NCBI RefSeq assembly: GCF_000337535.1
Contig: NZ_AOIP01000062.1
Span: 1 to 64,000 of the forward strand
Direction of reading: 5' to 3'
Source of the DNA: Natrialba aegyptia DSM 13077
Lineage (GTDB): Archaea; Halobacteriota; Halobacteria; Halobacteriales; Natrialbaceae
DNA length: 64,000 nucleotides
Of the stretch, positions 8,257 through 31,681 are shown one piece after another. Each line of letters begins with the position of its first letter. The first letter of the stretch is position 1. Both the position numbers and the translations under genes were made by a program. The notes beneath the pieces are model-generated. The model was given only the letters and a program-made list of their open reading frames with translations, had not been told where the DNA came from and ran no database searches.

Positions 8257-9735
8257 TTACTTGAGTCGGTCGCGAATTTCCGCCGCGTGTTCCTCGCGAC
8301 CCGTTTCTTCGAGGTGGCTGGCGTAGTCGTCTACCCGGTCCCAGGTGTAGTAGGGTCCCTTCTCGCGGAGTACCTGCCACATCGGGTCGGTGATGCCGTT
8401 CGAGGCGTCCGGATTGCCGCCGCGCTCGCCGCGGGCCGCCTCGAGCAGCCGGTCGTCGTGCCAGCGCTGCAGCCTGGCCAGCCCGTCATTGACGACGTTC
8501 GGCTTCGCCGTGGAGAGATCAGTCGTCTCGTGGGGATCGGCGGCGAGGTCGAACAGCATGACGTCCTCGAGGCGGCTCCGATAGGCATCGTGGTAGGTAC
8601 GGAGCAACAGCCAGTCGTCCCAGCGAACGCCCCGCTGGCACGTCCACGCCCCCTGACTGACGATCAGTTCGTCGCGCCCGTCCGCGGAGCCGTTAGTAAC
8701 TGCGTCGACGAACGAGCGGCCGTCCCAACCCTCGGGCACGTCGCCGCCGACGAGATCGACGAGCGTGGGTGCAAGATCGAGCTGGTAGCGCAGATCGTCG
8801 TCGGTTCCTGGCTCGACTTCGGGACCGCGAACAATAAGGGGGACCCGACACGTCATATTGTCGGCCAGTTGATGGTCTCCGTAGACGTTGAGTTCGCCGA
8901 GATTCTCGCCGTGGTCGCCGCTGATCACGACGAGCGTTTCCTCGAGAACGTCCCGCTCGCGGAGGAGATCGATCAGTTTCCCGATGTAGTGATCCATGTA
9001 GCGGACGCCGACATCGTAGCCGTCGATCATCGTCTTGAACTCCTCGCGAGAGGAAATCTCCGGCGGCATCCGCGGACGGTCCCACGACCTGACCCACCCT
9101 TTGAGATCCTGCGCACTGTGGGGACCCGACTCCTGATAGTGCTGCTCGATCAAATCCTCGGTCAACCACTCTGGTGCGGGCTCGTCGGCGAACGGGTTTC
9201 CGTACTCCGCCGGGGTGCGATAGGGCGTGTGTGGATCCCAGAAGTTGACGTGGCAGTACCAGTCGTCTTCCATCGCGTGCGCCTCGAGCCAGTCGCGGGC
9301 ATAGGGGTACACCTCGTCGGCGCGCTCGCCACCGTTGCCCCCGGTGTCGTACAGCTCCCGAAATCCTTCGACCACCTGCCAGCCGTCGTGGCGGTCCGGA
9401 AACGGACTGATCATCGTCGTGTGAATTCCCGCGTTGTTCAGTGCCGACGCGAGCGTCCTGAACCGGCCCGGGTAGTTCGCGCGCCGACTCGAGCCGTGGC
9501 GTCGAGGATCCGCGTTGCGACCGCCGTGGTTGATCACGCCCGTGTGGATCCCGAATCGGCCCGTGTAGAACGCCGTCCGCGAGGGGAGACAGGGCGCGTC
9601 AGAAGTATAGACAGTGGTGAACGTTCGCCCTTCTACCGACAGGTCGTCGATGTTGGGCGACGTCTCGCGGTGGTAGCCGTAGCAGCCAAGGTGATCCGGC
9701 CGCAACGAGTCGCAGTCGATGTACAGTATCCGCAT
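8257..9735 (-). CDS. Type I sulfatase (formylglycine-dependent)
   Basis: A 492-residue arylsulfatase-family hydrolase. ATG 9735 is chosen because MRILYIDCDSLRPDHLGCYG is the standard sulfatase N-terminus, with metal-binding Asp residues, and a TATA box lies just upstream. The core motif C-L-P-S-R begins at Cys49; in this class that Cys is converted to formylglycine, the catalytic nucleophile. The second metal site appears as VVISGDHGENLGE. No signal peptide is seen, so it should act on imported oligosaccharide in the cytoplasm. With the GH20 gene and the lyase-like gene it points to a sulfated amino-sugar glycan. No formylglycine-generating enzyme is present in this window. Confidence 0.93.
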   Translation of the reverse strand: MRILYIDCDSLRPDHLGCYGYHRETSPNIDDLSVEGRTFTTVYTSDAPCLPSRTAFYTGRFGIHTGVINHGGRNADPRRHGSSRRANYPGRFRTLASALNNAGIHTTMISPFPDRHDGWQVVEGFRELYDTGGNGGERADEVYPYARDWLEAHAMEDDWYCHVNFWDPHTPYRTPAEYGNPFADEPAPEWLTEDLIEQHYQESGPHSAQDLKGWVRSWDRPRMPPEISSREEFKTMIDGYDVGVRYMDHYIGKLIDLLRERDVLEETLVVISGDHGENLGELNVYGDHQLADNMTCRVPLIVRGPEVEPGTDDDLRYQLDLAPTLVDLVGGDVPEGWDGRSFVDAVTNGSADGRDELIVSQGAWTCQRGVRWDDWLLLRTYHDAYRSRLEDVMLFDLAADPHETTDLSTAKPNVVNDGLARLQRWHDDRLLEAARGERGGNPDASNGITDPMWQVLREKGPYYTWDRVDDYASHLEETGREEHAAEIRDRLK

Positions 9736-9756
9736 GCACCGATAACGGCCAGTATC

Positions 9757-9770
9757 GATAAAATAAGTTT
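9757..9770 (-). promoter_or_regulatory. TATA box of the sulfatase gene
   Basis: On the minus strand AAACTTATTTTATCG-like sequence lies about 26-30 nt before ATG 9735. It supports that start against the very long upstream open frame. Confidence 0.6.
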
Positions 9771-9888
9771 CCCCGAGCAACTCGCCGCTCCGTCCTTCGA
9801 CAACCGGAGTTGCATTCCGCAGTTGGCCGCTGCAGAGCACACCGCTGACAAAGCTTTTGTGACAGGACTTCCTCTGGCTCGGTATCGC

Positions 9889-11037
9889 ATGGCAGACACT
9901 GAGAGTCCGCGGCTCGCGACCGCGGACGACTTCCACGAAATGACGGCGCTGCTCGATCGACACTTCGCCTACGAGCGCTACGGGATGGCCGCCCGGCTCC
10001 CGTTCTGCTACGACTCGGAACGCAGCGAACGCCACGCTATCATCGAGAAGGACGGGGAGATCGTGAGTCACATTGCCGCGATACCGCAGACGCTCGTCGT
10101 CGGCGAGGGAACCGTCGAGTGCTGGGGGATCGGCGGCGTCGCGACCGACAAACGGTACCGCGGAAACGGGTATATGAGTCAGCTGCTCGAGTTCTGGCTC
10201 GATCGGATGGACGACGCCGGCGTCCCGCTGTCGGAACTCAGCGGGAACCGCCAGCGCTACAACCACTTTGGGTACGAGAATGCCGGCGTGGAACTCCGGT
10301 ACACGATCTCGAAACGCTCGTTCGCGACGACGCCCGAACCCGCGGTCGACACCGTCGTAACTCACGACGGATCGGACGCACACCTCGAGGTGCTCCGCGG
10401 GATCCACGGCCAAGAACCGTACCGCGTTCGGCGCGACCGGGAGCGAAGCCGGATTACGTTCGGCCAACGCGGGCTCGAGACGCTCCTGTACGAGGGCGAC
10501 AGCGACCCAGCGTACCTCAGCCTCACGCGGGAGAGTCGTAGCCGCACGATAAAGGAATTCGGCGGCTCCGAACACGGCCTCGAGGCGCTGCTCGGCCACG
10601 TGCTCGCGATGTACGACCTGAACGATCTGACGGCCTGTGTCCATCCGCGTCACCCGCTCGACGACGTGTTTCACCGCCATAGCCGGTTCTGGCAACAGCG
10701 ACCGCACCGGAAGCTGAACATCCGGGATCTGTCCGCACTCCTCGAGGCCTTCGAGGGACAGCTCGAGCGGCGCTGGCGCGACGGGGATCGGACCGAGACC
10801 GGCGAAATCTCGCTGGCGCTCGAAGAAGAGGGGGCAACTGTTCGGCTCTCGTACGGTCCGGGGCGCGTGACGGTCGAGCGCGTCGCCGACGATCCCGATC
10901 TCTCGCTCGATCGAATTTCGATGACGGGCTTGCTGTTCGGCTTCCACGATCGGAAGCGCACGCTCCGACAACAGGACCCGTTCCTCGAGGCAACACTGCC
11001 GCTCCAGTTCTACATCTGGCCGACGGAGCACGTCTAG
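9889..11037 (+). CDS. Eis-like GNAT N-acetyltransferase
   Basis: A 382-residue protein with an N-terminal GNAT domain, a second GNAT-like domain and an SCP2-like C-terminal domain, the layout of the Eis/enhanced-intracellular-survival family. The acetyl-CoA loop is visible as VATDKRYRGNGYMSQLL (R-x-x-G-x-G). The C-terminal part SLALEEEGATVRLSYGPGRV fits the SCP2-like sheet. ATG 9889 follows an AAAGCTTTTGTG promoter-like element by about 28 nt. It is divergent from the sulfatase gene. Probably acetylates an amine on a small molecule, possibly an amino sugar given the neighbours; the substrate is not determined. Confidence 0.85.
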   Translation: MADTESPRLATADDFHEMTALLDRHFAYERYGMAARLPFCYDSERSERHAIIEKDGEIVSHIAAIPQTLVVGEGTVECWGIGGVATDKRYRGNGYMSQLLEFWLDRMDDAGVPLSELSGNRQRYNHFGYENAGVELRYTISKRSFATTPEPAVDTVVTHDGSDAHLEVLRGIHGQEPYRVRRDRERSRITFGQRGLETLLYEGDSDPAYLSLTRESRSRTIKEFGGSEHGLEALLGHVLAMYDLNDLTACVHPRHPLDDVFHRHSRFWQQRPHRKLNIRDLSALLEAFEGQLERRWRDGDRTETGEISLALEEEGATVRLSYGPGRVTVERVADDPDLSLDRISMTGLLFGFHDRKRTLRQQDPFLEATLPLQFYIWPTEHV

Positions 11038-11200
11038 AACGTCACGGCCGTTCAACCGGTCCGGTCGCAAGGCTACCCGGTCGCGAGCCGCAACGACGGT
11101 TCGCGACGACGCGGTCGCACCGTCGGACTCGTTGGTTCGGTTGACCCGCGCATTCTGTCACCGAGTTCGAGGGCGAGATCCGTTTCAGCAGTAATCAGAA

Positions 11201-11209
11201 TTATATATC
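11201..11209 (+). promoter_or_regulatory. TATA box of the short Gfo/Idh gene
   Basis: TTATATATC sits about 26 nt upstream of ATG 11231, in a locally A/T-rich stretch that contrasts with the GC-rich flanks. Confidence 0.65.
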
Positions 11210-11230
11210 AAGAAAGTAGACGTATCTACA

Positions 11231-12124
11231 ATGATCGAGCTAGGGGTACTCGGACTAGACACCAGTCACTCGGAAACATTCGCAAGCATTCTCGAGAACC
11301 GGTCCAACGCGTCGGTCACGGCCGTCTGGGACGGCGGTGACGTCCGCGAGAGCGAGTACACGCGCGAGTTCTGCGAGCGCTACGGTGCGACCAGGTACGA
11401 CGATCCGCACGCGATGATCGGCAACGTCGATGCGGCGATGGTTCTCACGGTCGACTGGAACGGGCACCGTCACCTCGCCGTGCCGTTCCTCGAAGCGGGT
11501 GTCCCGACGATGGTCGACAAACCGGTGGCGGGATCAGTCGCCGACGTGATCGCGATCGAGCGGGCGGCGGTCCGCGGCGGCGCGCCGCTGTTCGGCGGCT
11601 CGGCACTCCCGTTTCACCCGTCGGTTTCGTCGCTTGCCAAGACGATGCCGGACACGGCGTTCTCCGTCGGCTACGGAGATACGTTCTACTACGGCGTTCA
11701 CCTCGTCGACAGCGTTCGACTGCTTGCGGGGACCGACTGGACGCAGGTGACGCCGAATCACGGCCCGGGTCGGGTCGCGACGATCGACTTCGCGGACGGC
11801 TCCGCGGCGACGCTCCGGTTCGACGGGCCGGAAGGCGACGGCACGTTCGGTTTCCTCACGGTCGGCGAACGCACGCAAACCGTCCAAATCGGAAGTTCGA
11901 CCGCCGAACTCGAGCAGATGTATGAACCGTTCTTGGATGAGTTCCTCGCGGCGGTCCGCGGTGAACGCGACGACCGAAACCGCGTCACCGACGCGGGGAC
12001 GCTCCTAGTCGGCGTGCAGACCGCCCTCGAGACTGGTGATCCGGTGACACCCGACACCGGCGCGCTCGAGACGGCCGAGGTCGCCAGCGAGTCGTTCCTC
12101 GCCGACTACGAACCGTACTACTGA
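11231..12124 (+). CDS. Short, divergent Gfo/Idh/MocA-like oxidoreductase
   Basis: A 297-residue protein, shorter than the 320-370 of its relatives here. The N-terminal strand IELGVLGLD leads into TSHSETF (residues 11-17) instead of a glycine-rich dinucleotide loop. The catalytic motif is VDKPVAGS, with Asp for the usual Glu of EKP. The rest keeps the family layout: FGGSALPFHPS, a substrate domain with YYGVHLVDSVRLL, and a terminal helix ending ETGDPVTPDTG. With both cofactor loop and EKP altered it may be a divergent dehydrogenase or a non-redox relative. It has a clear promoter and is convergent with the full-length homologue at 12195. Confidence 0.8.
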   Translation: MIELGVLGLDTSHSETFASILENRSNASVTAVWDGGDVRESEYTREFCERYGATRYDDPHAMIGNVDAAMVLTVDWNGHRHLAVPFLEAGVPTMVDKPVAGSVADVIAIERAAVRGGAPLFGGSALPFHPSVSSLAKTMPDTAFSVGYGDTFYYGVHLVDSVRLLAGTDWTQVTPNHGPGRVATIDFADGSAATLRFDGPEGDGTFGFLTVGERTQTVQIGSSTAELEQMYEPFLDEFLAAVRGERDDRNRVTDAGTLLVGVQTALETGDPVTPDTGALETAEVASESFLADYEPYY

Positions 12125-12194: not shown

Positions 12195-13286
12195 TCAGGA
12201 GTCGGTGTCCGGCGCGACCTCCTCGTGGGCCGGACGGGGAGAGAGTTCGCCCGACTCGACCATCGAGACGAGCGGGTTATCGTCGATCGAGAGGGGGAAC
12301 TCCATGCGCTCGCGCCGGCGCACCGACTCGTAGCAACCGAAAATAATCTCCATCGTCGCGAACGCCCGCTGCGCGCCCAACTGGGGCTCTGCGTCCGTCT
12401 CGAGGCCACGAATAATGTCGCCGACTGCGGCCGGAATGTCCGCCAGCGGCTCGCCCGTGTCGATTTCGTCCCACGCCGCGGCGTCGGCCGTCCGCACCCG
12501 GATCTGGGCGTTGCCGTCGGGATTGAGTTCGAGGACGCCCTCGGTCCCCACGACGCGAACGTCGCAGTCGATGAACGGGTTCTCGTCGCCGGTCGCGATG
12601 ACGGCGTCGGTTCCGTCCTCGTACTGCCAACGCACGAATGCTTGGTTCTCGTTGTGGACACCGTAACGGACGTTCTCCTCACGGTAATCGATCTGGCCCA
12701 TCACCCACGCCGCGGAACGATCGTCGAGAATGGAATTACAGAGATCGACGAGGTGGGTACCGGCGTCAAAGAGATTCTTCGTCGCGAGTTCGACGCGGGT
12801 GACCTCGCCGAGGTCGCCCGCCGTGACCAGCTCCGCTGCGCGCCGGCTCGGGGTTGCGACCCGCCGCTGGTGGTTGAACGTCAGCTGGATGTCCCGTTCG
12901 TCGCAAACCGCCACCATGCGCCTGCTGTCCGCCATGGTATCGGCCATCGGTTTCTCGCAGTGGATCGCCCGCAGCCCGTCCGCGTTCGCGCAGTCGATCA
13001 CGATGTCGGCGTGGGTCGGCACCGGCGTACAGACGCTGACGATGTCGGGTTCGACCTCCCGAAGCATCCGCTCGTAGTCGGTGTAGACGTTCGCCGGATC
13101 GATCTCGTTGCGCTCGGCGAATGCGAGCGCGTTCTCCTCGACGATGTCGGCGCAAGCGACAAGCGAGCAGCGCTCGTCCCCGTCGTACGCGCTCGCGTGG
13201 TGGTACGCCATCGCCGCACTTTCGCCCCACACCGGGTTGTCCGGCTCCGGTCCTGTTCCAATGAATGCTATGTCGTAGTCTGACAC
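12195..13286 (-). CDS. Gfo/Idh/MocA family oxidoreductase
   Basis: A 363-residue NAD(P)-dependent sugar dehydrogenase-like protein starting with GTG at 13286 (MSDYDIAFIGTGPEPDNP). The Rossmann loop is extended (GTGPEPDNPVWGESAAMAYHH) compared with GxGxxG relatives. Canonical features follow: SVCTPVPTHADI, the catalytic-lysine motif CEKPMADT, and NLFDAGTHLVDLCNSI in the substrate domain, then DVRVVGTEGVLELN. A T-rich promoter-like element (CTATTTGTTGA on the minus strand, about 13310-13320) precedes it. It is divergent from the HEAT-repeat gene. Substrate unknown. Confidence 0.87.
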   Translation of the reverse strand: MSDYDIAFIGTGPEPDNPVWGESAAMAYHHASAYDGDERCSLVACADIVEENALAFAERNEIDPANVYTDYERMLREVEPDIVSVCTPVPTHADIVIDCANADGLRAIHCEKPMADTMADSRRMVAVCDERDIQLTFNHQRRVATPSRRAAELVTAGDLGEVTRVELATKNLFDAGTHLVDLCNSILDDRSAAWVMGQIDYREENVRYGVHNENQAFVRWQYEDGTDAVIATGDENPFIDCDVRVVGTEGVLELNPDGNAQIRVRTADAAAWDEIDTGEPLADIPAAVGDIIRGLETDAEPQLGAQRAFATMEIIFGCYESVRRRERMEFPLSIDDNPLVSMVESGELSPRPAHEEVAPDTDS

Positions 13287-13387
13287 GGTGCCAGAATGAT
13301 TGTGAACGTATCAACAAATAGGTACCGGACCCCTTTACTTCGGTTCTCCGTCGCCGAGTCACGCGGTCGTCCGCTCGGCGACGGCAG

Positions 13388-13394
13388 TTATAAG
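13388..13394 (+). promoter_or_regulatory. TATA box of the HEAT-repeat gene
   Basis: TTATAAG lies about 31 nt before ATG 13422. It fixes that start over an in-frame upstream codon at 13296. Confidence 0.65.
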
Positions 13395-13421
13395 GGGGCA
13401 CGGAACTCGATACGACGTACC

Positions 13422-14606
13422 ATGATCTCGCCCGGCGAAGACGCGACCGACCGCGCGAGTGAACTCCTGGACGCGGCAACGGCCGATCCCGCGCAGATCT
13501 CGCTCGCGCACGTCGTCGAACTGCTCGTGCTCGGCAACCCGGAGACGCGCCGACTTGCGATGAAGTGTCTCGAGGCCACGCTCGACGTCCGGCCTGAGGC
13601 GTCCGAAGCCGCCGTCACCGCGTTCGAGCGGCTGCTCGAGGACGGCGATCCGCACGTCCGCCGCAGGGCGGCGCTCTCGGCGGGGGCGGCGATACAGGGG
13701 GCGGATACCGAGTCGTTCGAAGCGCTCGTTTCGCCGCTCGAGGCGATCGGAAGCGATCCCGCTGAGCCGGGTCGCGACGCCGCGGTCCGTGCGCTGGCCA
13801 CGATCGGGCTCGAGCGCCCCGAATCGGTGACGGGGGCGGTCGAACTCCTCCTCGACGTCTGCCACGCTAGAGTCGTTTCGGCGGAATCACCGGCCGACAC
13901 GTCGCCGGGAGCGTCGTCGAGCGTCGGCCCGGAACGCGACCGGAGGTTGACAACTCGCGTTCAGGCGATGGCCGGACTCACGCGGATTGCGGCCGAGCGG
14001 CCGGAGACGATCGTTGGTTACGTCGATCAGGTCGTAGCTTTGCTCGAGGACGACCACCACCTGATCCGGTCGGGAACGTGCGAGGTGCTCGAGTCGCTCG
14101 CCGAGGGCCACTCCGACGAGGTGGCCCCGTTCGTCCCGGCACTGGTCGATCGCCTCGCTTCGGACACGGACCACCCCGTTCCGTGGCGCGCGGCGGACGC
14201 GCTCAACGCCGTCGGCGGTGAGTACCCAGAGCTTGTCGGCGCAGCCCTCGGGTCAGTCGTCGACGACATCGAGGCCCTCCTCAAGCGGCGCGATCCCGGA
14301 ATCCGGGGGGTCGGAATCGGCCTCCTCACCTACGTCACGCAGGTCGATCCCTCGTCTGTCGAGGGGCTGCTCCCGCGCGTTCACGAGCTCCTCGCCGACG
14401 ACCACGCACCGGTTCGGGCGAACGCGGCGCTGACGCTCGGGCTAACCGGCTACGGGGATGCGGTCGACGACCTCGAGGTGCTCGTGGCGGACGACCCCGA
14501 GCCGGCGGTTCGCGACGCCGCGACGCGCGCGCTCGAACGGCTCGAAGGCGAGCACGAACCGTCGCCCGAGCACGTACACGAGAACCGACCAGTAGACAAC
14601 TATTAA
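13422..14606 (+). CDS. HEAT/armadillo-like repeat protein
   Basis: A 394-residue, strongly acidic protein made of paired helices about 35-45 residues apart. Recurrent segments are LGNPETRRLAMKCLE, DGDPHVRRRAALSAG, PGRDAAVRALATIG, DDHHLIRSGTCEVLE, HPVPWRAADALNAVG, DDHAPVRANAALTLG and DPEPAVRDAATRALE. This DPxxxVRxxAAxALG pattern marks HEAT repeats, which form curved scaffolds for protein binding. No catalytic domain, signal peptide or membrane segment is seen. Its link to the surrounding sugar enzymes is unclear; haloarchaea carry many such scaffolds. The stop codon overlaps the promoter of the GH20 gene. Confidence 0.83.
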   Translation: MISPGEDATDRASELLDAATADPAQISLAHVVELLVLGNPETRRLAMKCLEATLDVRPEASEAAVTAFERLLEDGDPHVRRRAALSAGAAIQGADTESFEALVSPLEAIGSDPAEPGRDAAVRALATIGLERPESVTGAVELLLDVCHARVVSAESPADTSPGASSSVGPERDRRLTTRVQAMAGLTRIAAERPETIVGYVDQVVALLEDDHHLIRSGTCEVLESLAEGHSDEVAPFVPALVDRLASDTDHPVPWRAADALNAVGGEYPELVGAALGSVVDDIEALLKRRDPGIRGVGIGLLTYVTQVDPSSVEGLLPRVHELLADDHAPVRANAALTLGLTGYGDAVDDLEVLVADDPEPAVRDAATRALERLEGEHEPSPEHVHENRPVDNY

Positions 14607-14634: not shown

Positions 14635-16344
14635 ATGCCTTCACGCGAACTCGACATCGTCCCCCGACCGCGTCGAGCGGACCTGACCGGCGAGGCGGTC
14701 CGTCTCGAGGCCCCATTCATGGTTGGAACGGACAACGATGCGGGTGCGGTCGTCGCGCTGCTGTCGGACCTCCTCGAGCGCGAGACGAACGAACGGGTTG
14801 TCAGGTCGAACGAGGAATCGGACGTTCGGCTGACGATCGACGACGCTGCCTCGAGTTTGGTCGACGACTCGGAAGGGTACGTCCTCGAGGCCGACGGGAA
14901 CGGGATCATCGTTCGATCGCCGACGGCCGACGGCCTTCGACACGGCTGTCAGACCATCGTCGGGGGTCTCGAACGGCGTAATGGGGACTGGCGGTTTCCG
15001 GCCGGCGAGATCCGAGACTGGCCCGCGACCCGGTGGCGAGGGTTCATGCTCGATCCGGCGCGGGGTATTCTCCCGCTCGAACGCGTCAAACGGCGGATCG
15101 ACCAGGCCGCCCGGGCGAAGCTGAATCGACTTCACCTCCATCTGCTCGATCACGAATCGTACGCCCTCGAGTCCGAGGCGTTTCCCGAACTGAACCGCGG
15201 CCCCGACGGCGAGAATCGACCGGCGTACTCCTCCGAAGAGATCGAGGACCTGATCGAGTACGCCGGCCGCCGCGGGATCGAAATTCTCCCCGAGGTCGAC
15301 GTTCCCGGCCACGCCGGTCACGTCCTCGAGACGTATCCCGAACTTCAGTGCACCGTCGAGGATGGCAAGCCTAGCGACGGGACGTTGTGTCTCGGAACGA
15401 CGCGGACGGACGAGTTCGTGGAGACGCTGCTCGGGGAAGTGATCGAGCTGTTCCCCTTCGAGACGGTCCACGTCGGTGGCGACGAGTGGGCGATGAACTG
15501 CTCGTGGAACGAGTGCTCGCGGTGCCGAGAACGGATGGTCCGCGAGGGGTCGGAGACGGTCGCCGAGCACTTCTACGAGTTCGTCCGCCGGCTCCACGAG
15601 ACGCTCGAGGCGAACGACCGCCGGCTGATGTGCTGGAACGACCAGATCGATATCGCCGAAGCGCCGGACGTGCCGCGGGACGCGCTGGTGCAGTTCTGGC
15701 GCGTCGCCGGGAATGGACGCGGTCCCGTCGAGGGGTGCAGCCTCGAGCGGTTCCTCGAGGAGGAGTTCGAGGTCGTCAACTCGTACGTCTACGCAGCCTA
15801 CGTCAACGGATGGATCTCGGAAGAATATCTGCTCGGCTGGGAACCGCGGAGTCGCCCGTCCATTCCGGACGAACGAGCGGAACAGGTGATCGGCGGCGAA
15901 CTCCTGGCGTGGGAGCCCGCTGCCGAGGAAACCCGCGAGTACTTCGAACGCGCGCTTCCGTCGGCGATTCCCGTCTTTGCCGACCGACTCTGGAACCCCG
16001 ACCCGATCGCGGACCGTCGATCGTTCGCGACAGCGCTGACGCGACACGCGCTCGGCCCGTTCGTCCCCGCTGGCTTCGATATCTACCGCGAACTCGGCGG
16101 GATGATCATCCCGACGGAGGGGGAGAACGCCCCCTCACCGCCGGCCCACGCGCACCGCTCGTTCAGGGATCGGTCCCCGCGCGAGGCCCGCGACGACTAC
16201 GAAGACACCCTCGAGACGCTCGGGTCGCTTTCGGAAGCGGATGAGGTGGTCTATCCGGAGACGGCGGCGGCGTACCGAGACTGTCTCGAGTGGCTCGTCG
16301 GGGTCGCCGACCGGGAGGGGCGCGGCGTGATCGACCGCCCCTGA
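14635..16344 (+). CDS. Glycoside hydrolase family 20 beta-N-acetylhexosaminidase
   Basis: A 569-residue GH20 enzyme that removes terminal GlcNAc or GalNAc by substrate-assisted catalysis. An N-terminal GH20b-like domain (about 1-125) precedes the catalytic TIM barrel, which opens with RWRGFMLDPARGILPLERVKR. Further marks are LNRLHLHLLDHESYALES, LPEVDVPGHAGHVLETYPEL, and the catalytic pair Asp283-Glu284 in VHVGGDEW. Trp residues of the substrate pocket follow (MCWNDQI, QFWRVAG, LAWEPAA). No signal peptide is present, so it should act on imported oligosaccharides. Together with the sulfatase it indicates an N-acetylhexosamine-containing sulfated glycan. Confidence 0.93.
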   Translation: MPSRELDIVPRPRRADLTGEAVRLEAPFMVGTDNDAGAVVALLSDLLERETNERVVRSNEESDVRLTIDDAASSLVDDSEGYVLEADGNGIIVRSPTADGLRHGCQTIVGGLERRNGDWRFPAGEIRDWPATRWRGFMLDPARGILPLERVKRRIDQAARAKLNRLHLHLLDHESYALESEAFPELNRGPDGENRPAYSSEEIEDLIEYAGRRGIEILPEVDVPGHAGHVLETYPELQCTVEDGKPSDGTLCLGTTRTDEFVETLLGEVIELFPFETVHVGGDEWAMNCSWNECSRCRERMVREGSETVAEHFYEFVRRLHETLEANDRRLMCWNDQIDIAEAPDVPRDALVQFWRVAGNGRGPVEGCSLERFLEEEFEVVNSYVYAAYVNGWISEEYLLGWEPRSRPSIPDERAEQVIGGELLAWEPAAEETREYFERALPSAIPVFADRLWNPDPIADRRSFATALTRHALGPFVPAGFDIYRELGGMIIPTEGENAPSPPAHAHRSFRDRSPREARDDYEDTLETLGSLSEADEVVYPETAAAYRDCLEWLVGVADREGRGVIDRP

Positions 16345-23040: not shown

Positions 23041-23060
23041 CAATGATCACATCACCGTAA

Positions 23061-23233: not shown

Positions 23234-24445
23234 GTGCCTGACAAGGCGACGATCTACGACGATCTCGAGGTCCCGACCGTCATCAACGCGACCGGGACGA
23301 AGACCCGCATCAGCGGGTCGCTGATGCGCGAGGAGGCGGCGGACGCGATGCGCGACGCCTCCCGTTCGTTCGTCCGCATCTCGGACCTGCAACAGCGCGC
23401 CTCGGAACTCGTCGCCGAGGCGACCAGCGCCGACGCCGGCTACGTCACTAGCGGTGCGAGCGCCGCGCTGTCGATGGCCGCCGCGGCGTGTCTTTCCGGA
23501 GACGATCTCGAGGTGATGGCTCGACTCCCCGATACCGAGGGTGTGGCGGACGAGATCGTCATGCCGCGGACCCACCGGAACGGCTACGATCACGCCCTTC
23601 GCCTGCCCGGAGCGACGATTGTCGACATCGGGACGAACGACCACCACCTCGGCACCGGCTCGGAAAACGTCGAGCCCTGGGAGATCGAGGCAGCCATCAC
23701 GAACGACACCGCCGCCGTCGCCTACATGGAGAAACCCTACACGCAGCCACCGCTCGAAACGGTCTGCGAGATTGCCCACGACCAGGACGTGCCGGTCATC
23801 GTCGACGCGGCGGCGGAGCTCCCGCCGGCCGAGAACCTCTCGCGATTCGTCGAGCAGGGCGCTGATCTCGTCGCGTTCAGCGGCGGGAAGGCAATTCGTG
23901 GCCCCCAGTCAACGGGCATCCTCGCCGGCGACGAAGCGTTGATCCGATCAGTCGCCTGCCAGCACCTCGACATGCACGCGGCCGACGCAGTGTACGATCC
24001 GCCAGCCGATCTTCTTGCCACTGACGAGCTACCGGGCGTGCCACGCCAGGGAATCGGTCGTTCGATGAAAGTCGGCAAGGAGGAAATCGTCGGCCTGATC
24101 CGCGCGCTCGAGTTGTTCCTCGAGGAGGACCACGGGGACTGCCTCCGAAAATGGAACGAGCGGGCGGAACATCTCGCAGCGGAACTTGCCGATATCACGG
24201 GACTCGAGACGCAACTCGAGGGCGGGGACAAGACCGACGCCGTCGCCCAGGTGGTTGCGACCGTCGACTCGGGCCGCGCGGCGACCGACGCGACGAGACT
24301 CGTCGAATCGCTCCGGCGAGAGACCCCGCGCGTGTTCGTCGGCGCCGATCGATTGGACGCCGAGGAGTTCACGGTCAACCCGATGTGTCTCACCGACGAG
24401 GAGGCCGACTACGTGGTCGATCGCATTCGGGCGACGCTCTCGTAG
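23234..24445 (+). CDS. SelA/DgaE-like PLP-dependent enzyme
   Basis: A 403-residue fold-type I PLP enzyme of the SelA-like group. This group includes selenocysteine synthase and D-glucosaminate-6-phosphate ammonia lyase (DgaE). The start is GTG 23234. Diagnostic segments are PTVINATGTKTRISGSLM, GYVTSGASAALSMAAAA, VIVDAAAELPP (Asp binding the PLP ring nitrogen), and LVAFSGGKAIRGPQSTGIL with the probable Schiff-base Lys. Nothing else here suggests selenocysteine use. Next to amino-sugar glycan genes, elimination of ammonia from an amino-sugar acid is the more likely role. It is divergent from the lyase-like gene and convergent with the ABC permease genes. Confidence 0.85.
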   Translation: MPDKATIYDDLEVPTVINATGTKTRISGSLMREEAADAMRDASRSFVRISDLQQRASELVAEATSADAGYVTSGASAALSMAAAACLSGDDLEVMARLPDTEGVADEIVMPRTHRNGYDHALRLPGATIVDIGTNDHHLGTGSENVEPWEIEAAITNDTAAVAYMEKPYTQPPLETVCEIAHDQDVPVIVDAAAELPPAENLSRFVEQGADLVAFSGGKAIRGPQSTGILAGDEALIRSVACQHLDMHAADAVYDPPADLLATDELPGVPRQGIGRSMKVGKEEIVGLIRALELFLEEDHGDCLRKWNERAEHLAAELADITGLETQLEGGDKTDAVAQVVATVDSGRAATDATRLVESLRRETPRVFVGADRLDAEEFTVNPMCLTDEEADYVVDRIRATLS

Positions 24446-24502: not shown

Positions 24503-25627
24503 TCAGTTGATCTGCTCTTCGTCGCTGCCGACCTTCTTCGCGTGTCGGGCCCTGATACGCGGGTTGAACACGCGGTCCATACCCTGTGCAAAGAGGATCA
24601 ACCCAAACGAGAGAACAACGACCGCGGCCATCGGCCAGAAGATCTGGTAGAAGTTACTCAGGTTGACCAGCGCGTGGGCCTCGGAGTACGCGGTGTCCAT
24701 CATGATTCCCCAGTTCGCGGTCGTAAGCGGGAGGACACCGAGGAAGTACAGCGCGACGGAGCCGAACACGACCTGGCGGCCCGCGTTGGCGAAGTTGATG
24801 AGGATGTACGGCATCAACTGTGGCGAGATGTCCCTGGCAAGGATCGTCCGCGAGGGCAGGCCCATCGTCCGGGAGGCCTCGACGTACGACTCCTCACGGA
24901 GGGTCAGAACCTGGGAGCGAAGTGCCCGCGCGAGCCCCGGCCAGGCGTCGATCGCCAGCACGACCCCGATGAGCCACGCCTGGCGAGGAGACCAGATCGC
25001 TACGATCACGATGAGCAGCGGCAGGCCGGGCATCGTCATGACGATGTCCGTGATGTACATGAGGAACTCGTCCGTCTTTCCGCCCTTGTAGCCGGCCGTG
25101 ATCCCAAAGATCGCGGCGAGACCGACAGAGACGATCGCGCCGGCGACCACCATCTCTAGCATGTCCGGCGTCGCGTGGATGAGGTTGCGTCCGATCGGCG
25201 TCCCGTAGTTGTCGGCGCCGAGCGGATACCGGATGTCGATCCCCGGGACGGAGATCGGCCCCATGGACAGCTGGTGGTCGACGCCGATATCGATCCAGCC
25301 ACCCTCCTCCCAGAGGGCGGCGACGCCACCGTCGAACGGCTGGAGGTTGTTCGGTGCCTGGTTCGTCGCCGGCGGCGTGACCAGTCGCGGCCCAATCGTC
25401 CCGAAGAAGACGAACAGGGTGACGACCAAGATTCCGATTCGCGTTCGCCAGTCGTCCCAGGCGACCCGTCCCGGCGCGAGGAAGTACGCATCCAAGATCC
25501 GCTCGAATCGTTCCCGTCTCGAGAGGGAAACGATGTCATCCTCGGCGAGGTGGCCGAACAGTTGTTCATCCGTGAGCTGTTCGTCCGTTTCGAAACCTGA
25601 TTCGTTAGTATGACTCACTGTGATCAC
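24503..25627 (-). CDS. ABC transporter permease, DppC/OppC type
   Basis: A 374-residue inner-membrane subunit of a family-5 (dipeptide/oligopeptide/oligosaccharide) importer. A long acidic cytoplasmic N-terminus (about 65 residues) precedes the first helix (IGILVVTLFVFFGTIG). An extracytoplasmic loop holds the typical YPLGADNYGTPIGRNLIHA. The core contains five helices and the EAA loop YVEASRTMGLPSRTILARDISP, which docks to the ATPase. The start GTG 25627 overlaps the end of the DppB-like gene by 23 nt. With its neighbours it forms a full importer; the glycan-enzyme context suggests an oligosaccharide cargo rather than peptides. Confidence 0.9.
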   Translation of the reverse strand: MITVSHTNESGFETDEQLTDEQLFGHLAEDDIVSLSRRERFERILDAYFLAPGRVAWDDWRTRIGILVVTLFVFFGTIGPRLVTPPATNQAPNNLQPFDGGVAALWEEGGWIDIGVDHQLSMGPISVPGIDIRYPLGADNYGTPIGRNLIHATPDMLEMVVAGAIVSVGLAAIFGITAGYKGGKTDEFLMYITDIVMTMPGLPLLIVIVAIWSPRQAWLIGVVLAIDAWPGLARALRSQVLTLREESYVEASRTMGLPSRTILARDISPQLMPYILINFANAGRQVVFGSVALYFLGVLPLTTANWGIMMDTAYSEAHALVNLSNFYQIFWPMAAVVVLSFGLILFAQGMDRVFNPRIRARHAKKVGSDEEQIN

Positions 25628-26627
25628 CTGAACCGATCCGTGGGTCGACGAGTCCGTACGTGAACTCGGCGATGAGGATGCCGATGAGCGTGACGATCGT
25701 GAAGAAGAGGAACGACCCCATCAACAGTGGATAGTCCCGACGCATGACCGCGTCGTAGGTGTACCAGCCGACACCGGGATACGTGAAGATGAACTCGAGT
25801 AAGACGCTGCTCGAGAACACCGTGGCAATGCCGATCATCATCTGGGTGTACAGCGGCAGGATCGCGTTGCGCGCAACGTAGCGGGTCGCGATACGCGTCG
25901 AACTGATCCCACGAAGTCGCGCGACCCGGAGGTAATCCTCTCCCAGGATTCGAATGGAGTTCCCTCGCATCGAGAGGGCACCGCCGCCGAACCCGACGAT
26001 GAAACTAGACATCACCGGCAGGACGGCGTGGTAGGAGATACTCGCCATGAACCGGACGTTTAGACCCGTCTGTAGATCCGTGTTATACCGGCCGCCGGTC
26101 GGGAAGAGCCCGAGTTCGTAGCCGAAGAATGCCAGGAAGAGGATCGCGCCGACGTAGTACGGCACCGAGTTCAGGAACGTCGCGAGCACGGTCGCGTAGT
26201 TGTCGAAACGCGAGCCTTCCTTGTAGGCCATTGCCGCTCCGAGGAGGATGTTCGTCGTGTAGCCGAGCGCCAGGCCGTAGACGCTGATGAAGATCGACCA
26301 TGGCATCGCCGTGAACAGGATGTCAAACACGGGTTCGTTGTAGAAGTACGACTGGCCGAAGTCCTGGTAGAGAATGATATCCTGCAGGTACTCGGCGTAC
26401 TGGACGTACCACGGCTGGTCCGGATTGAACCCGATGTGCTGTTCGACCATCGCGTCGAGCACTTCGGGATCAGCCGTCCCGCCACCCGCTTCCATATCTG
26501 CCTCGAACTGGGCGCGCATCGCCTGGGAGGGATTGCCCGGCATGAGCCGAAAGAGCGCAAACGTGATCGTCGTCACGGAGACGAGCGTCACAGCTGCGTG
26601 AACGACCCGCTTGACAAAGTATCTCAT
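25605..26627 (-). CDS. ABC transporter permease, DppB/OppB type
   Basis: A 340-residue permease. It starts with the family-typical MRYFVKRVVHAAVTLVSVTTITFALFRLMPGNP, split here between the first helix and the RxMPGNP motif. An extracytoplasmic loop (GFNPDQPWYVQYAEYLQDI) is followed by five helices. The EAA loop is LGEDYLRVARLRGISSTRIATRYV, and the late FTYPGVGWYTYDAVMRRDYPL segment is characteristic. It pairs with the DppC-like subunit, whose gene overlaps its 3' end. A 73-residue membrane protein gene lies 73 nt upstream. Confidence 0.91.
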   Translation of the reverse strand: MRYFVKRVVHAAVTLVSVTTITFALFRLMPGNPSQAMRAQFEADMEAGGGTADPEVLDAMVEQHIGFNPDQPWYVQYAEYLQDIILYQDFGQSYFYNEPVFDILFTAMPWSIFISVYGLALGYTTNILLGAAMAYKEGSRFDNYATVLATFLNSVPYYVGAILFLAFFGYELGLFPTGGRYNTDLQTGLNVRFMASISYHAVLPVMSSFIVGFGGGALSMRGNSIRILGEDYLRVARLRGISSTRIATRYVARNAILPLYTQMMIGIATVFSSSVLLEFIFTYPGVGWYTYDAVMRRDYPLLMGSFLFFTIVTLIGILIAEFTYGLVDPRIGSGDHSESY

Positions 26628-26922: not shown

Positions 26923-26966
26923 CTACCTCTGCGATATCGTCACGGTAGCAAAAATCTTCGGTCGAT

Positions 26967-29159
26967 TCAGTCGGCTTTGCTCTCCGTCTTGAGCGAGACG
27001 GTGTCGCTTTCGACCGGTTCGCTCGCCCAGTACTCGTGATCGTCGTCCTCGCGGAAGCAGGCGACGCGAGCGGCCCCTTCGGTGTCTTGCAGTTCGGGAA
27101 CCTCTCGGGTACAGACCTCGCGGGCATCAGGACACCGCGTCTGGAACGGACAGCCGCTCGGCGGGTCGGTCGGGTCCGGAATGTCGATCTCTCGGATCGG
27201 CGGATCAGTGGCGTTCGCTTCCTTGGCCTCGTCCGGATCGAGCGGTGGCGTCGCCCACCGGAGCACCTTGGTGTAGGGGTGTTTCGGGTCGTGGATGATC
27301 TCCTGTGCCGGCCCGATCTCGACGAGGTTGCCGAGATACATGATGCCGATCCGTCCGTCGGACTTCTCGGTGAGATAGCGTGCGTTCGAGAAGTCGTGAG
27401 AGATGAATAGGTACGACGTGTCGAACATCTCCTGGAGGTCGAGCATCAGGTCCATCATCTCGACCCGCAAGGAGACATCGAGCGCGCTTACTGCCTCGTC
27501 GGCGAGAATGAGGTCAGGACTCATCAGGAGCGCGCGGACGAGGACGACGCGCTGTTTCTCGCCGCCGCTGAGCTGGTGGGGGAATCGCGCCGCGTAGTCC
27601 TCAGGCGGCTTCATGCCGACGCGCTTGAGCAGATTATAGATCACCGTTTCCCGGTCGCTCGGACCGAGGTCCGGCCGCCACCGCTTCAGCGGCGCCGACA
27701 GGCTCGCACGGACCGTCCGGGAAGAGTTCAGCGAACTTCCCGGATCCTGGTGGACGATCTGGAGGGCGCGCCGGATGTCGTCGAACTCGTAGTCACCGCT
27801 CCCGGCTTTCGCCTCCCAGACGTCCTGACCGCGGTAGCTGACGGAGCCAGCCGTCGGCTCCTGGAGTCCGATCACGGTCTTTCCGAGGGTCGTCTTCCCG
27901 CACCCGGATTCGCCGACGAGGGCGACGACCTCGTTTTCCCGCAGCTCGATCGACACGTCGTTGACCGCCCGGACCACGCTCTCCTTGCCGAACAGTTCGT
28001 CGATGAGTCCCGTCTGTTCGAAGTGGACGTCGACGTCGTCCAGCGAGACAACGGTCTCCTCCTCGGACTCGAACGCCGCGGTGGACTCCGGAAATTCATC
28101 CGGATCGACGCCGAGTGCGTACTCGATCTCGTCGCCCGACTGTTCCCAGTGGAAGCAGGCTGCCCCTCGTTCCTCGGAGAACTCGTGATAGTCGGGATCC
28201 GCCTGCGTGCACTCCACGGTCGCGAGCGGACAGCGCGGATGATACGAACACCCGCTCGGTGCGTCGACCGGGTCCGGACTCTCGCCCTCGATCGGGTGCA
28301 TATCCTCCAACGATGCGTCCACGCTCGGCACCGACTTTAACAGTGCCCGCGTGTAGGGATGAGCGGCGTCGCGAATGACTTGCTCGCTCGGACCGTACTC
28401 GACGAACTCGAAGGCGTACATGACGGCGAGCCGATCAGCCAGTCCGGCGACGAGCGGCAGATCATGGGTAATAAAGACGATTGTCAGGTCGTATTCCTCC
28501 TGGAGGTTCCCCAGGAGACTCATGATTGATCGCTGCATGAGTAGGTCCAGGGCCGCGGTCGGCTCGTCCATCACGAGGACCTTCGGCTCGAGAATCAGGC
28601 TCAGTGCGATGAGCGTCCGCTGTTTCATCCCACCGGACAGTTCGTGCGGGTACGAGTCGAAGACCCGCTCTGGATCGAGATAGAGATCCGCGAGCAACTG
28701 CCACCCGTGCTCCATCCGCTCTTCGATGTCCTCCCCATGGGCTCTGATCGTCTCCTCGAAATGTTCCCGGATCTTCATCGTCGGGTTGAACGAACTCATC
28801 GCTCCCTGGAACACCATCGAGATTTCCTCCCAGCGGAACCGTTCGAGTTGGGATTCGCTCAGCGAAAGCACGTCGACGGGTTCGCCGTCGGGCGGGTGGT
28901 AGATGATCTCGCCGGATGTCTGGCCGGGGTCGACGACAGCGTTGAGCAGAGCCGACGCGAACATCGACTTGCCGCTCCCGCTCTCGCCGACGATGCCGAG
29001 CATCTCATCCCGGTGGACATCGAATCTCACGCCATCGAGGACACGAGAGGTGCCCCGTTCCATGTCGAAGGTCACGTCCACGTCGCGTACCTCAAGGATG
29101 ACGTCGTGCGAGCTACGGTCGTCGTGCGTAATCTCGAGTTCTGTTTCGGTTCGCGTCAT
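26967..29159 (-). CDS. Fused double ATP-binding subunit (DppD-DppF type)
   Basis: A 730-residue protein with two complete ABC ATPase domains, replacing the separate DppD and DppF subunits. The first (about 20-330) has Walker A GESGSGKS, signature LSGGMKQ and Walker B VLVMDEPTAALD. The second (about 370-700) has GESGCGKT, LSGGEKQ and LILADEAVSALD. Each ends with the oligopeptide-ABC C-terminal region, including CSYHPRCPLATVEC and CPFQTRCPDAREVC. In relatives such Cys-rich tails can hold a 4Fe-4S cluster. It powers the permease pair encoded downstream in the same operon. Confidence 0.92.
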   Translation of the reverse strand: MTRTETELEITHDDRSSHDVILEVRDVDVTFDMERGTSRVLDGVRFDVHRDEMLGIVGESGSGKSMFASALLNAVVDPGQTSGEIIYHPPDGEPVDVLSLSESQLERFRWEEISMVFQGAMSSFNPTMKIREHFEETIRAHGEDIEERMEHGWQLLADLYLDPERVFDSYPHELSGGMKQRTLIALSLILEPKVLVMDEPTAALDLLMQRSIMSLLGNLQEEYDLTIVFITHDLPLVAGLADRLAVMYAFEFVEYGPSEQVIRDAAHPYTRALLKSVPSVDASLEDMHPIEGESPDPVDAPSGCSYHPRCPLATVECTQADPDYHEFSEERGAACFHWEQSGDEIEYALGVDPDEFPESTAAFESEEETVVSLDDVDVHFEQTGLIDELFGKESVVRAVNDVSIELRENEVVALVGESGCGKTTLGKTVIGLQEPTAGSVSYRGQDVWEAKAGSGDYEFDDIRRALQIVHQDPGSSLNSSRTVRASLSAPLKRWRPDLGPSDRETVIYNLLKRVGMKPPEDYAARFPHQLSGGEKQRVVLVRALLMSPDLILADEAVSALDVSLRVEMMDLMLDLQEMFDTSYLFISHDFSNARYLTEKSDGRIGIMYLGNLVEIGPAQEIIHDPKHPYTKVLRWATPPLDPDEAKEANATDPPIREIDIPDPTDPPSGCPFQTRCPDAREVCTREVPELQDTEGAARVACFREDDDHEYWASEPVESDTVSLKTESKAD

Positions 29160-29315
29160 GGTTCAGCTACCGGCCATCGGTCGCTTCTCGTCTCTCGGTT
29201 CTTCGGCGGACTGGTACATCGGTATTTCACTGTGACATGGTTTGTCACAACACATATTAATCTTTGCGACGATCGATCTCGTCTCGCCGACCGAACTCGA
29301 TAACGGCGTACAAAG

Positions 29316-29324
29316 TTTTATATC
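29316..29324 (+). promoter_or_regulatory. TATA box of the 86-residue membrane protein gene
   Basis: TTTTATATC lies about 30 nt upstream of ATG 29353. It supports that start over an in-frame codon at 29242. Confidence 0.6.
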
Positions 29325-29352
29325 GAATCTTACAGAACGTAGAGCAGACACA

Positions 29353-29613
29353 ATGGCAACCGCTTCGGAGAGCGACCCGAGTCAGACGGACGAACCACTG
29401 TACAGGATTCTCAAGATACTTCGGGGATCGCTCCTGCTGTCGATCGTGGCGATCGGCGTCCTCCTGCTGCTCATCGGCGCCGTTTTCGAGCTCCCCTTCC
29501 GGTTCACTAGTCAGGACGGTGTCATCGCTGGGATACTCGGCGTGTTTGGGATCACTGCAATCGTCTCCGCGGGATCGTTTTACGTGCTGTTGACGTGGTT
29601 TCGACGGGACTGA
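29353..29613 (+). CDS. Small two-helix membrane protein beside the ABC operon
   Basis: An 86-residue protein starting MATASESDPSQTDEP. It has two long hydrophobic segments, SLLLSIVAIGVLLLLIGAVF and VIAGILGVFGITAIVSAGSF, joined by a short FRFTSQDG loop and ending in RRD. It lies between the divergent fused-ATPase gene and the binding-protein gene, on the binding-protein strand, with its own TATA box. I do not recognise a family. Its size and topology resemble the 73-residue protein at 26701, though the sequences are not clearly alike. Possibly a membrane accessory of the importer. Confidence 0.7.
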   Translation: MATASESDPSQTDEPLYRILKILRGSLLLSIVAIGVLLLLIGAVFELPFRFTSQDGVIAGILGVFGITAIVSAGSFYVLLTWFRRD

Positions 29614-29800
29614 TCCGGCGTCTATCCGGTCTAGCGTCGGGAGTCGGCGGGAAACCCGTAATTCTGCCACTAGCGAGTGAATGGATAACTGATACCGCGT
29701 ATATTTTCCCGCAGGTTGTGATGACATTGCGGCGTGAAACGGGGTCACGTCTCTCCGAAGTGAATGTACTGTCGGTCCGAACGTGCGAACCCGAGAAAAA

Positions 29801-29808
29801 TATTTAAC
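29801..29808 (+). promoter_or_regulatory. TATA box of the binding-protein gene
   Basis: TATTTAAC, in a very A/T-rich stretch, lies 26-33 nt upstream of ATG 29834, consistent with a strong leaderless promoter. Confidence 0.65.
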
Positions 29809-29833
29809 CTATGACTTGTAATGATAGTTTTGT

Positions 29834-31681
29834 ATGCCAAGTAGTGACAGACACGGAACCGTGGACTCTGCCGAAGAGTTCCTGACGCGGCGACAGATGC
29901 TCGCCGCGAGTTCGGCGATGGTCGCGGCGGGGGTCGCTGGCTGCATGGGTGGTGAAAAAGAAGGCAGAGGAGAAGGTGGGATCTCCTCGTGGCAGCCGAC
30001 GATCCCGGACGAGATCAATTTCAATTCCTGGGCGACGGGATACCCGTGGTCGCAGTCGTGGATGCTCCTCGAGCCGGTTCAGCGATTTTATGCTGACGGC
30101 TCGATGACGCTCGAGCAGATCAGCGATTGGGAGTACGATCCGGACGAACAGGCGGTAACCGTAGAGTTCGAGGAGGGCTGGTACTGGTGGAACGGCGACC
30201 AGGTCACCGCCGAGGACAAGTACTGGTACGAGGAGTGCGCTCGCCTCTTCCAGGGAGACGGCAGCGACATCGAGGAACTAATTCTCGAAGACGAGATGAC
30301 ACTCACCCGGGTGTACAAGGAACCCCAGAACCCCGAGTTGGTCCAGTACCAGCTGGGTGGCTACCTCGGCGAGATGCAACGCGTCCATCGGGACAAGTTC
30401 AAGCCGTGGGCGGAAGAACTCCAGGATGCGGCGGACCACGACGAACGGCTGGAGATTCAAGAGGAGATGGCTGAGGAGATGCCGCTGCATATCTCGACGG
30501 TCATGGACGAAGGACTCGGGAACGGGCCGTTCGAGATCGTCGACTACGACACGGAGGGGATCTACTGCGAACTGTTTGAGGACCACCCCTACGCCGACGA
30601 GATCGAAATCGACGAGTTCGAGTTCGTACTCGCACAGGACGACGCCCTCGCGCAGCGGATTCAGGGCGGCGTCGTCGACTTCGGTTTCGGATTGCTCCAG
30701 CAGTGGGTCGGCGAAGGAACGGCGCCCAACTCCATGGACAACATCACCGTCTACAACGATACGTTCATGCGAAAACTCGAGTTCTTTGGGCAGGGGCCAG
30801 GAGCTGAACACCTCCGCCGACGTGAGGTTCGACGAGCGATCGCGCACGTCCTGAACCTCGAACACATCTCGACGAACTACAATACCGAGAGCGTCCCACG
30901 GGAGGCACAGACCGGACTCCCATCGGCGGTAACCGAGAACTGGCTCGACGATAGCTACGTCGAGTCCTATATCGATTATCCGGTTCAGGATGACGAGGAG
31001 CGCGCGACGGAACTGATGGAACAAGCCGGATACGAACTCAGGGGCGACGAATGGGTCGACGAGGACGGCGATCTCGTCTCACTGCAGCTGGTCCTCCCGG
31101 ACTTCCGGACGAACCTCGCCCGAACAATCTCCGATCAACTCATCAACTTCGGCTTCGAGATCGATTTCAACGTCCTTGAGTCGGCGACGTACAACGATCG
31201 GAAATCGAACAACGTCGACTTCGACCTGACGATCGAGAATCACGGCGGACAGATCGCACACCCGTTCTACTACTTCCGGCACAACCACACGGCGGGCAAC
31301 GAGCTCGGCGAAACTGTCGACATCGAGCAGGCGCTCGACGCTGGCGAGACGAGATCACCGTATAACGGCCGCGAGATCGTCGTCGAGGTGCCGACGGAGG
31401 TCGGCCAGGAGGATCTCTCCGGGTCGACCGAGGAGGTCAATCTCTTCGAACTCGACCAGGAGTGGCGAAGCGTCAATGACGAACAGCGCAACCAGGAGAT
31501 CGCCGAGACGTTCTCGTGGTACTGGAACTTCCATCTGCCCGGAGTCAACCTCGTCGAGGTGCAGACCGGAACCTTCGGCAACACCCAAGACTACGATTTC
31601 AACACTGAGACCAATGACTGGGAGGCGTACCGCGGTGCGTACCGTGGCCTGAAGCGCGGCCACATCTCCCCGTCGGACTAG
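29834..31681 (+). CDS. Family-5 ABC substrate-binding lipoprotein
   Basis: A 615-residue extracytoplasmic solute-binding protein. The N-terminus carries a twin-arginine lipoprotein signal, TRRQMLAASSAMVAAGVAGC, with the lipobox Cys just before MGGEKEG. A glycine-rich linker then leads into the mature domain, as in haloarchaeal binding proteins anchored by lipid outside the membrane. The body has the family-5 (DppA/OppA) layout: VTVEFEEGWYWWNGDQVTAED, NGPFEIVDYD, RRAIAHVLNLEHI, and a C-terminal lobe rich in Trp/Tyr. It supplies the importer encoded at 24503-29159. The cargo is probably an oligosaccharide given the enzymes nearby. Confidence 0.9.
   Translation: MPSSDRHGTVDSAEEFLTRRQMLAASSAMVAAGVAGCMGGEKEGRGEGGISSWQPTIPDEINFNSWATGYPWSQSWMLLEPVQRFYADGSMTLEQISDWEYDPDEQAVTVEFEEGWYWWNGDQVTAEDKYWYEECARLFQGDGSDIEELILEDEMTLTRVYKEPQNPELVQYQLGGYLGEMQRVHRDKFKPWAEELQDAADHDERLEIQEEMAEEMPLHISTVMDEGLGNGPFEIVDYDTEGIYCELFEDHPYADEIEIDEFEFVLAQDDALAQRIQGGVVDFGFGLLQQWVGEGTAPNSMDNITVYNDTFMRKLEFFGQGPGAEHLRRREVRRAIAHVLNLEHISTNYNTESVPREAQTGLPSAVTENWLDDSYVESYIDYPVQDDEERATELMEQAGYELRGDEWVDEDGDLVSLQLVLPDFRTNLARTISDQLINFGFEIDFNVLESATYNDRKSNNVDFDLTIENHGGQIAHPFYYFRHNHTAGNELGETVDIEQALDAGETRSPYNGREIVVEVPTEVGQEDLSGSTEEVNLFELDQEWRSVNDEQRNQEIAETFSWYWNFHLPGVNLVEVQTGTFGNTQDYDFNTETNDWEAYRGAYRGLKRGHISPSD

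Follow-up and report, generated by a model that had tools for sequence, protein, structure and literature searches.

Bacteroides loci for glycosaminoglycan (GAG) utilisation follow an order in which the polymer is cut outside the cell and the products are imported, desulfated and trimmed. Haloarchaea that grow on hyaluronate and chondroitin sulfate were described in May 2026, with PL8, GH88 and GH154 enzymes, a sulfatase and an ATP-binding cassette (ABC) importer (PMC13260240). For amino sugars, the ong pathway of marine bacteria has been proven: a D-aminoacylase and then a pyridoxal phosphate (PLP)-dependent deaminase convert N-acetylglucosaminate to glucosaminate and on to 2-keto-3-deoxygluconate (PMC9537276). 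The locus analysed here lies in a 64,000-nucleotide stretch of Natrialba aegyptia DSM 13077 (contig NZ_AOIP01000062.1, positions 1 to 64,000; henceforth referred to as the window), which is nearly all of contig C61 in a genome of 4.6 Mb. A preliminary description had proposed that positions 8257-31681 hold a candidate archaeal utilisation locus for a sulfated amino-sugar polysaccharide. The observation was confirmed and its interpretation is in part supported. The reading somewhat favoured on sequence evidence is an archaeal import-type utilisation module for an acidic polysaccharide that has beta-linked N-acetyl-amino sugar residues and probably also carries sulfate esters. The most interesting result is the absence of a recognisable maturase for its sulfatase.

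The locus resembles the GAG loci of Natronoarchaeum/Haloarcula H-hyl strains (PMC13260240) in clustering a secreted lyase-like protein with a sulfatase and an ABC importer for oligosaccharides; a plasmid location is shared by the Natrinema zhouii cluster. In place of PL8, GH88 and GH154, it encodes a PL17/ulvan-lyase-like protein of 1252 amino acids, referred to as HEP, and it differs further in having a GH20 enzyme, a DgaE-like enzyme, an AXE1-like hydrolase and many Gfo/Idh oxidoreductases. The published GAG pathway does not fit because the genome is devoid of GH88/GH105 and no locus gene matched PL8; the PL8 scan was confined to the module proteins and did not extend to the remainder of the genome. 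With the published haloarchaeal loci, whose enzyme set is different, it is now only in part correct to call such loci rare in the archaeal literature. The overall order of events is shared with the Bacteroides loci. Transport there is by SusC/SusD, whereas the Natrialba transport genes belong to SBP_bac_5, BPD_transp_1 and ABC_tran (family-5 ABC); furthermore, the Natrialba sulfatase and GH20 enzyme carry no signal peptides, and there is no unsaturated glucuronyl hydrolase. With the ong pathway of Pseudoalteromonas (PMC9537276) the locus and its relatives share GH20, a D-aminoacylase-type amidohydrolase (in sister clusters) and a putative PLP-dependent step that would deaminate an aminosugar acid to yield 2-keto-3-deoxygluconate. 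The PLP enzyme of ong is of the D-amino-acid-deaminase type and that of the locus is DgaE/SelA-like, no lytic polysaccharide monooxygenase was seen here, and Natrialba itself lacks the D-aminoacylase.

Conservation of the module and its secreted protein

HEP (19285-23043, − strand; all coordinates refer to the window) was found in 12 of 125 Natrialbaceae genomes representing 7 genera, often in multiple copies. Genes for GH20, the solute-binding protein (SBP) and a GNAT acetyltransferase were located near HEP in all 12 genomes, the DgaE-like gene in 11 of the 12 clusters and an orthologue of the sulfatase, SULF, in 10. Gene order was shuffled between genera, and since the same genes co-cluster in this rearranged form, the neighbourhood is beyond chance. 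Named hosts of the cluster are N. taiwanensis, Halovivax sp. KZCA124, Natrinema zhouii and Saliphagus infecundisoli; in Natrinema zhouii it is located on a plasmid and elsewhere on chromosomes. The HEP protein of the closest named relative, Natrialba taiwanensis DSM 12281, is 98% identical. Beyond the family HEP relatives are rarer: a sample of 392 genomes from the order, Natrialbaceae members counted in, contained 17 with one. The gene families, the location signals and the conserved co-clustering are established. A catabolic module in an archaeon, combining a secreted lyase-like enzyme, an oligomer importer, a cytoplasmic sulfatase and GH20, was therefore upheld as conserved. Its extent was revised: as the conserved set runs from the oxidoreductase gene GfoA on the left to GfoF on the right, the functional unit is placed at ~424-32763. 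This is wider than the proposed cluster of 24 kb, in which the GNAT, HEAT-repeat and Gfo/Idh genes had not been listed; the left extension contains GfoA, GfoB, FAH, GfoC, LLM and Nramp, and the right extension GfoF.

HEP had been described as a secreted heparinase-like protein. Secretion was borne out by a twin-arginine (Tat) signal, SRRSILATTG, whose RR pair is nearly invariant among homologues. The heparinase assignment was not, the best Pfam domain, Hepar_II_III_C, reaching 22.3 bits against a cut-off of 24. A profile built from 21 homologues matched the PL17 alginate lyase AlgL17 (E 9.5e-11), with HxHxD and HNTVVVDE stretches common to both, the ulvan lyase Uly1040 (E 2.8e-9) and a carbohydrate-binding module (CBM; E 1.6e-12). 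Because of these matches HEP is regarded as secreted and lyase-like, its family being unsettled, rather than as a heparinase proper, and heparinase identity is not established. The CBM-like region, at about residues 610-750 (20794-21216, − strand), matched MiXBM and a xanthan-lyase CBM by profile. Several HEP relatives in other families align over ~26-609 and 751-1252 only, with nothing between, and the binding module is for this reason considered an insert. An AlphaFold model from 8 sequences placed helices before strands, at a confidence (pLDDT 36) too low for comparison with the alpha/alpha toroid plus beta-sandwich fold of heparinase II/III-type lyases; the predicted layout is accordingly a helical N-terminal half, the inserted CBM and a beta-rich C-terminal half, both halves being taken from this low-confidence model.

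The family-5 ABC importer was confirmed in all its parts. SBP (29834-31681, + strand; PF00496, 83 bits) is a lipoprotein having an RR signal with an AGC lipobox. The permeases are of the DppC type (24503-25627, − strand; PF00528, 93.8 bits) and the DppB type (25605-26627, − strand; an open reading frame with 77-98% conservation), and the fused DppD-DppF ATPase (26967-29159, − strand) contains two PF00005 and two oligo_HPY stretches. Remnants of a second SBP gene are present between SBP and DppDF in N. taiwanensis (L001:2646-3291), and intact tandem SBP pairs occur in sister genomes G093 and G094; the window holds only a 9-residue trace of the second copy.

The sulfatase and the search for its maturases

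SULF (8257-9735, − strand; PF00884, 140 bits) is a predicted cytoplasmic S1-type sulfatase of the Cys type. The preliminary description had named a cytoplasmic formylglycine sulfatase; the real start is at 9735, giving 492 amino acids in place of the 937 of the open reading frame 8257-11070, and 9889-11037 encodes a GNAT acetyltransferase (Eis-like; PF13527, 79.7 bits) on the + strand. The presence of this acetyltransferase in every HEP cluster is unexpected for a purely catabolic locus. Sequence and alignments place the active-site motif of SULF, C49-L-P-S-R53, at 9577-9591 (− strand), the codon of Cys49 being 9591-9589. Each of the 29 orthologues sampled from the order had CxPSR, which was invariant in genomes with and without the formylglycine-generating enzyme (FGE), while the stretch CLPSRTAFYTGR was identical in all members of the HEP-locus clade at identities of at least 73%. 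Purifying selection (omega 0.11-0.22) rules out a decaying gene. By E-value the best PDB matches were bacterial sulfatase-family proteins, with a phosphonate monoester hydrolase in fourth place.

SULF was the only PF00884 match examined in its own genome with [CS]x[PA]SR. The other PF00884 proteins were rejected as Cys-type sulfatases upon failing this expression in their open reading frames; several haloarchaeal members have S/T-L-P-S-H at the motif position (L072 and L071, on C32 and C28, in the own genome) and others have no recognisable motif. A different sulfatase-like gene with a Ser-type S-I-P-A-R motif is located near HEP in Halovivax (L050:15339-16793) and beside HEP in Saliphagus (G120; L046/L048). 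Ser-type sulfatases are thought to need the maturase anSME, though no Natrialbaceae genome had an anSME over the cut-off.

Absence of a sulfatase-maturing enzyme from the genome had been named in advance as grounds for rejecting the proposed locus, and neither known maturase was detected. FGE (PF03781) gave 0 matches in the own genome and none in Haloferax volcanii, a control genome, and a haloarchaeal FGE used as query against the own genome reached only E 0.0033, with two stops. For anSME (TIGR03942) the best score in this genome was 28 bits against a cut-off of 349; two radical-SAM matches were rejected, since one passes the cut-off of the haloarchaeal family TIGR04347 and the other that of MoaA. 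Among the 125 Natrialbaceae genomes, anSME was over the cut-off in 0 and FGE was present in 8. Of 392 genomes sampled from the order, ~30 had a SULF orthologue, and a cross-tabulation compiled by hand gave 10 of these with FGE and 20 without. FGE was enriched among SULF carriers (10/30 vs 35/362, Fisher p 0.0008) and was absent from the HEP-locus clade (0/9 vs 10/21 other carriers, p 0.013), both comparisons being based on counts that ignore shared ancestry. A gap in draft assemblies was rejected as the cause, several FGE-negative carriers being assembled in 2-5 contigs. In genome G016 (L078:1486-3850) the FGE gene adjoins another sulfatase-like gene, so that in haloarchaea FGE may be associated with sulfatases other than SULF.

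The intact motif and the failure to detect the known maturases are established observations. Missing maturases were not taken as a refutation of the locus, given that the motif does not vary, that selection on the gene is purifying and that most haloarchaea with SULF are also without FGE. Either SULF matures by an unrecognised route, or its maturase is too divergent to have been detected, or it catalyses with a plain cysteine. That a third route, distinct from FGE and anSME, activates a native Cys-type sulfatase in haloarchaea is put forward tentatively, as less likely than not; lineages in which both maturases are undetectable, few-contig genomes included, keep the recognition site unchanged under purifying selection. 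A precedent is the “third sulfatase maturation system” of E. coli (Benjdia 2007, as cited in PMC6189696). As far as it is presented in that source, the two cases share a Cys-type sulfatase motif in cells where no maturase has been identified; the E. coli case concerns expressed sulfatases, in contrast to a native, conserved archaeal sulfatase in the absence of FGE and anSME. The alternative that SULF is not activated by formylglycine at all, acting through its plain cysteine or as a phosphodiesterase or phosphonate hydrolase, is judged somewhat unlikely. It draws on the choline sulfatase and the phosphonate monoester hydrolase that turn over unmodified (PMC6189696) and on the phosphonate monoester hydrolase among the leading PDB matches. 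The full FGE recognition site, kept invariant whether or not FGE is present, argues the other way, as does the reported 5- to 2500-fold gain in activity from formylglycine (PMC6189696). The maturase in E. coli being unidentified and unmodified choline sulfatase being active (PMC6189696), both a new route and plain-cysteine catalysis are real possibilities. A literature search found no relevant paper on FGE in haloarchaea and none noting a maturase gap there.

The amino-sugar branch and the target polymer

An amino sugar is supported as a component of the target polymer by several genes. The GH20 beta-N-acetylhexosaminidase (14635-16344, + strand; PF00728, 201 bits), which has no signal peptide, was confirmed as described, its catalytic Asp-Glu pair (VGGDE) aligning to 6yhh. 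The putative aminosugar-acid ammonia-lyase (23234-24445, + strand), a DgaE/SelA-like PLP enzyme, had its best NCBIfam match in the DgaE family TIGR01437, in agreement with the preliminary description, although it was below both NCBIfam cut-offs (201/385 and 192/600 bits). It matched a known relative with E 4e-37 over residues 6-244 and again at the C-terminus; the PLP lysine context is conserved (SGGKA vs SGAKA) and the His-His pair of 7lc0 is not conserved in the aligned stretch. Sister clusters add a GH3 enzyme (NagZ-like; best NCBIfam match beta-N-acetylhexosaminidase) and a PIG-L deacetylase. In six of them a D-aminoacylase-type amidohydrolase adjoins DgaE/FAH; in G120 it lies elsewhere. 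The presumed deacetylase or esterase of the Natrialba locus is the AXE1-like alpha/beta hydrolase (16391-18439, + strand; 682 amino acids), the esterase-like enzyme of the preliminary description, whose match is weak (PF05448, 27.5 bits, cut-off 21); orthologues occur in G078, G099, G093, G094, G089 and N. taiwanensis. This putative enzyme may be the Natrialba deacetylase.

In the proposed route, Tat-exported HEP would bind the polymer through its inserted CBM and cut it by beta-elimination at uronate, and the binding lipoprotein with DppB-DppC-DppDF would, from family membership, take up the oligomers. In the cytoplasm SULF would strip sulfate and the AXE1-like hydrolase acetyl groups, and GH20 would free the amino sugar. 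Gfo/Idh enzymes might then oxidise the amino sugar to an aminosugar acid, a deacetylase would free the amine, and the DgaE-like enzyme would eliminate ammonia to give a 2-keto-3-deoxy acid for use by the FAH-fold enzyme or an Entner-Doudoroff route. We infer by analogy an oxidative, glucosaminate-type route that would be analogous, but non-orthologous, to ong.

Several findings weigh against this reading. The heparinase domain of HEP is below its cut-off and the structural model is of low confidence. The own genome has no GH88/GH105 (PF07470), the activity that normally follows a uronate lyase; if HEP is a lyase, the Gfo/Idh and TIM-barrel genes are, by analogy only, candidates for handling the unsaturated uronate end. 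The D-aminoacylase-type amidohydrolase is also absent, leaving deacetylation unassigned in Natrialba, and neither maturase was found. Two of the 12 clusters (G008 and G089) have lost SULF or have another gene in its place. Of the sulfated amino-sugar polysaccharide originally proposed, the amino sugar is supported, and sulfation, which rests on this one gene, is probable and not settled.

Other targets were weighed against the same gene set. A GAG locus of the 2026 haloarchaeal kind, working by lyase, import, desulfation and unsaturated glucuronidase on hyaluronate or chondroitin sulfate, would account for the lyase-like protein, importer, sulfatase and hexosaminidase, and GAG-degrading haloarchaea exist (PMC13260240); since the published loci use PL8, GH88 and GH154, the lack of a PL8 match in the locus and of GH88/GH105 in the genome makes this reading improbable. 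An acidic polymer of algal type, similar to ulvan or alginate and free of amino sugar, with GH20 and the DgaE-like enzyme acting on other substrates, would agree with alginate and ulvan lyases being the nearest solved relatives of HEP and with the many Gfo/Idh and TIM-barrel genes, which suit uronates and deoxy sugars. It is likewise considered unlikely in view of GH20 in 12 of 12 clusters and the further amino-sugar genes in sister clusters.

Haloarchaeal surface glycans can be sulfated and can contain amino sugars, and the set might remodel or recycle the sulfated S-layer or exopolysaccharide of the cell itself in place of a foreign polymer. The GNAT gene in 12 of 12 clusters is in keeping with such a role. 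Importer, binding protein and catabolic PLP enzyme suggest that material is taken up and degraded, and the patchy distribution (12/125 genomes), with a plasmid copy in Natrinema zhouii, is typical of an accessory trait; a self-directed function is thus held to be very improbable.

Accessory genes and implications

The remaining genes of the module consist mainly of oxidoreductases and TIM barrels. The six Gfo/Idh/MocA oxidoreductases are GfoA at the module flank (424-1416, + strand; NCBIfam Gfo/Idh matches, with a 77% orthologue in the G094 cluster), GfoB (1504-2547, + strand; PF01408, 94 bits; conserved in sister clusters), GfoC (3649-4761, − strand), GfoD (11231-12124, + strand; PF01408, 42 bits), GfoE (12195-13286, − strand; PF01408, 67 bits) and GfoF at the right edge (31807-32763, + strand; PF01408, 85 bits), which adjoins SBP in G093, G094 and G089. 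The sugar isomerases of the preliminary description correspond to two AP_endonuc_2 barrels: TIM1 (7384-8247, + strand; PF01261, 135.7 bits), of isomerase/epimerase/lyase type, lies just to the left of the range first given, and TIM2 (18464-19225, + strand; PF01261, 93 bits) within it. The FAH-fold hydrolase (2899-3633, + strand; PF01557, 209 bits) adjoins the DgaE gene in six sister clusters (G008, G078, G099, G111, G112 and G114). Also present are a luciferase-like (LLM) oxidoreductase (4758-5738, − strand; NCBIfam LLM families) conserved in sister clusters, an Nramp-type divalent metal transporter (5965-7215, + strand; PF01566, 216 bits) found as well in the G008, G094 and G089 clusters, and a HEAT-repeat protein (13296-14606, + strand; PF13646).

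To the right of the module, 35840-63281 holds a second sugar-acid block with a talarate/galactarate-type dehydratase, a galactarate/altronate dehydratase, a TRAP transporter (DctP, DctM), an IclR regulator and alcohol dehydrogenases, followed by 2-oxoacid dehydrogenase E2/E3 genes. Judged from its gene families, this block could handle uronate products. Rfam and tRNA scans of the window gave no matches. Positions 9-27, at the contig start, are an exact Nextera mosaic-end sequence, AGATGTGTATAAGAGACAG, and the first listed open reading frame (11-424) begins within this untrimmed adaptor.

Besides the PL8-type GAG loci of 2026, haloarchaea would have another type of locus for using acidic polymers, with different enzymes and with an amino sugar that is probably degraded oxidatively. 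With the same native archaeal sulfatase present in organisms with and without FGE, the puzzle of formylglycine without a known maturase becomes directly testable.

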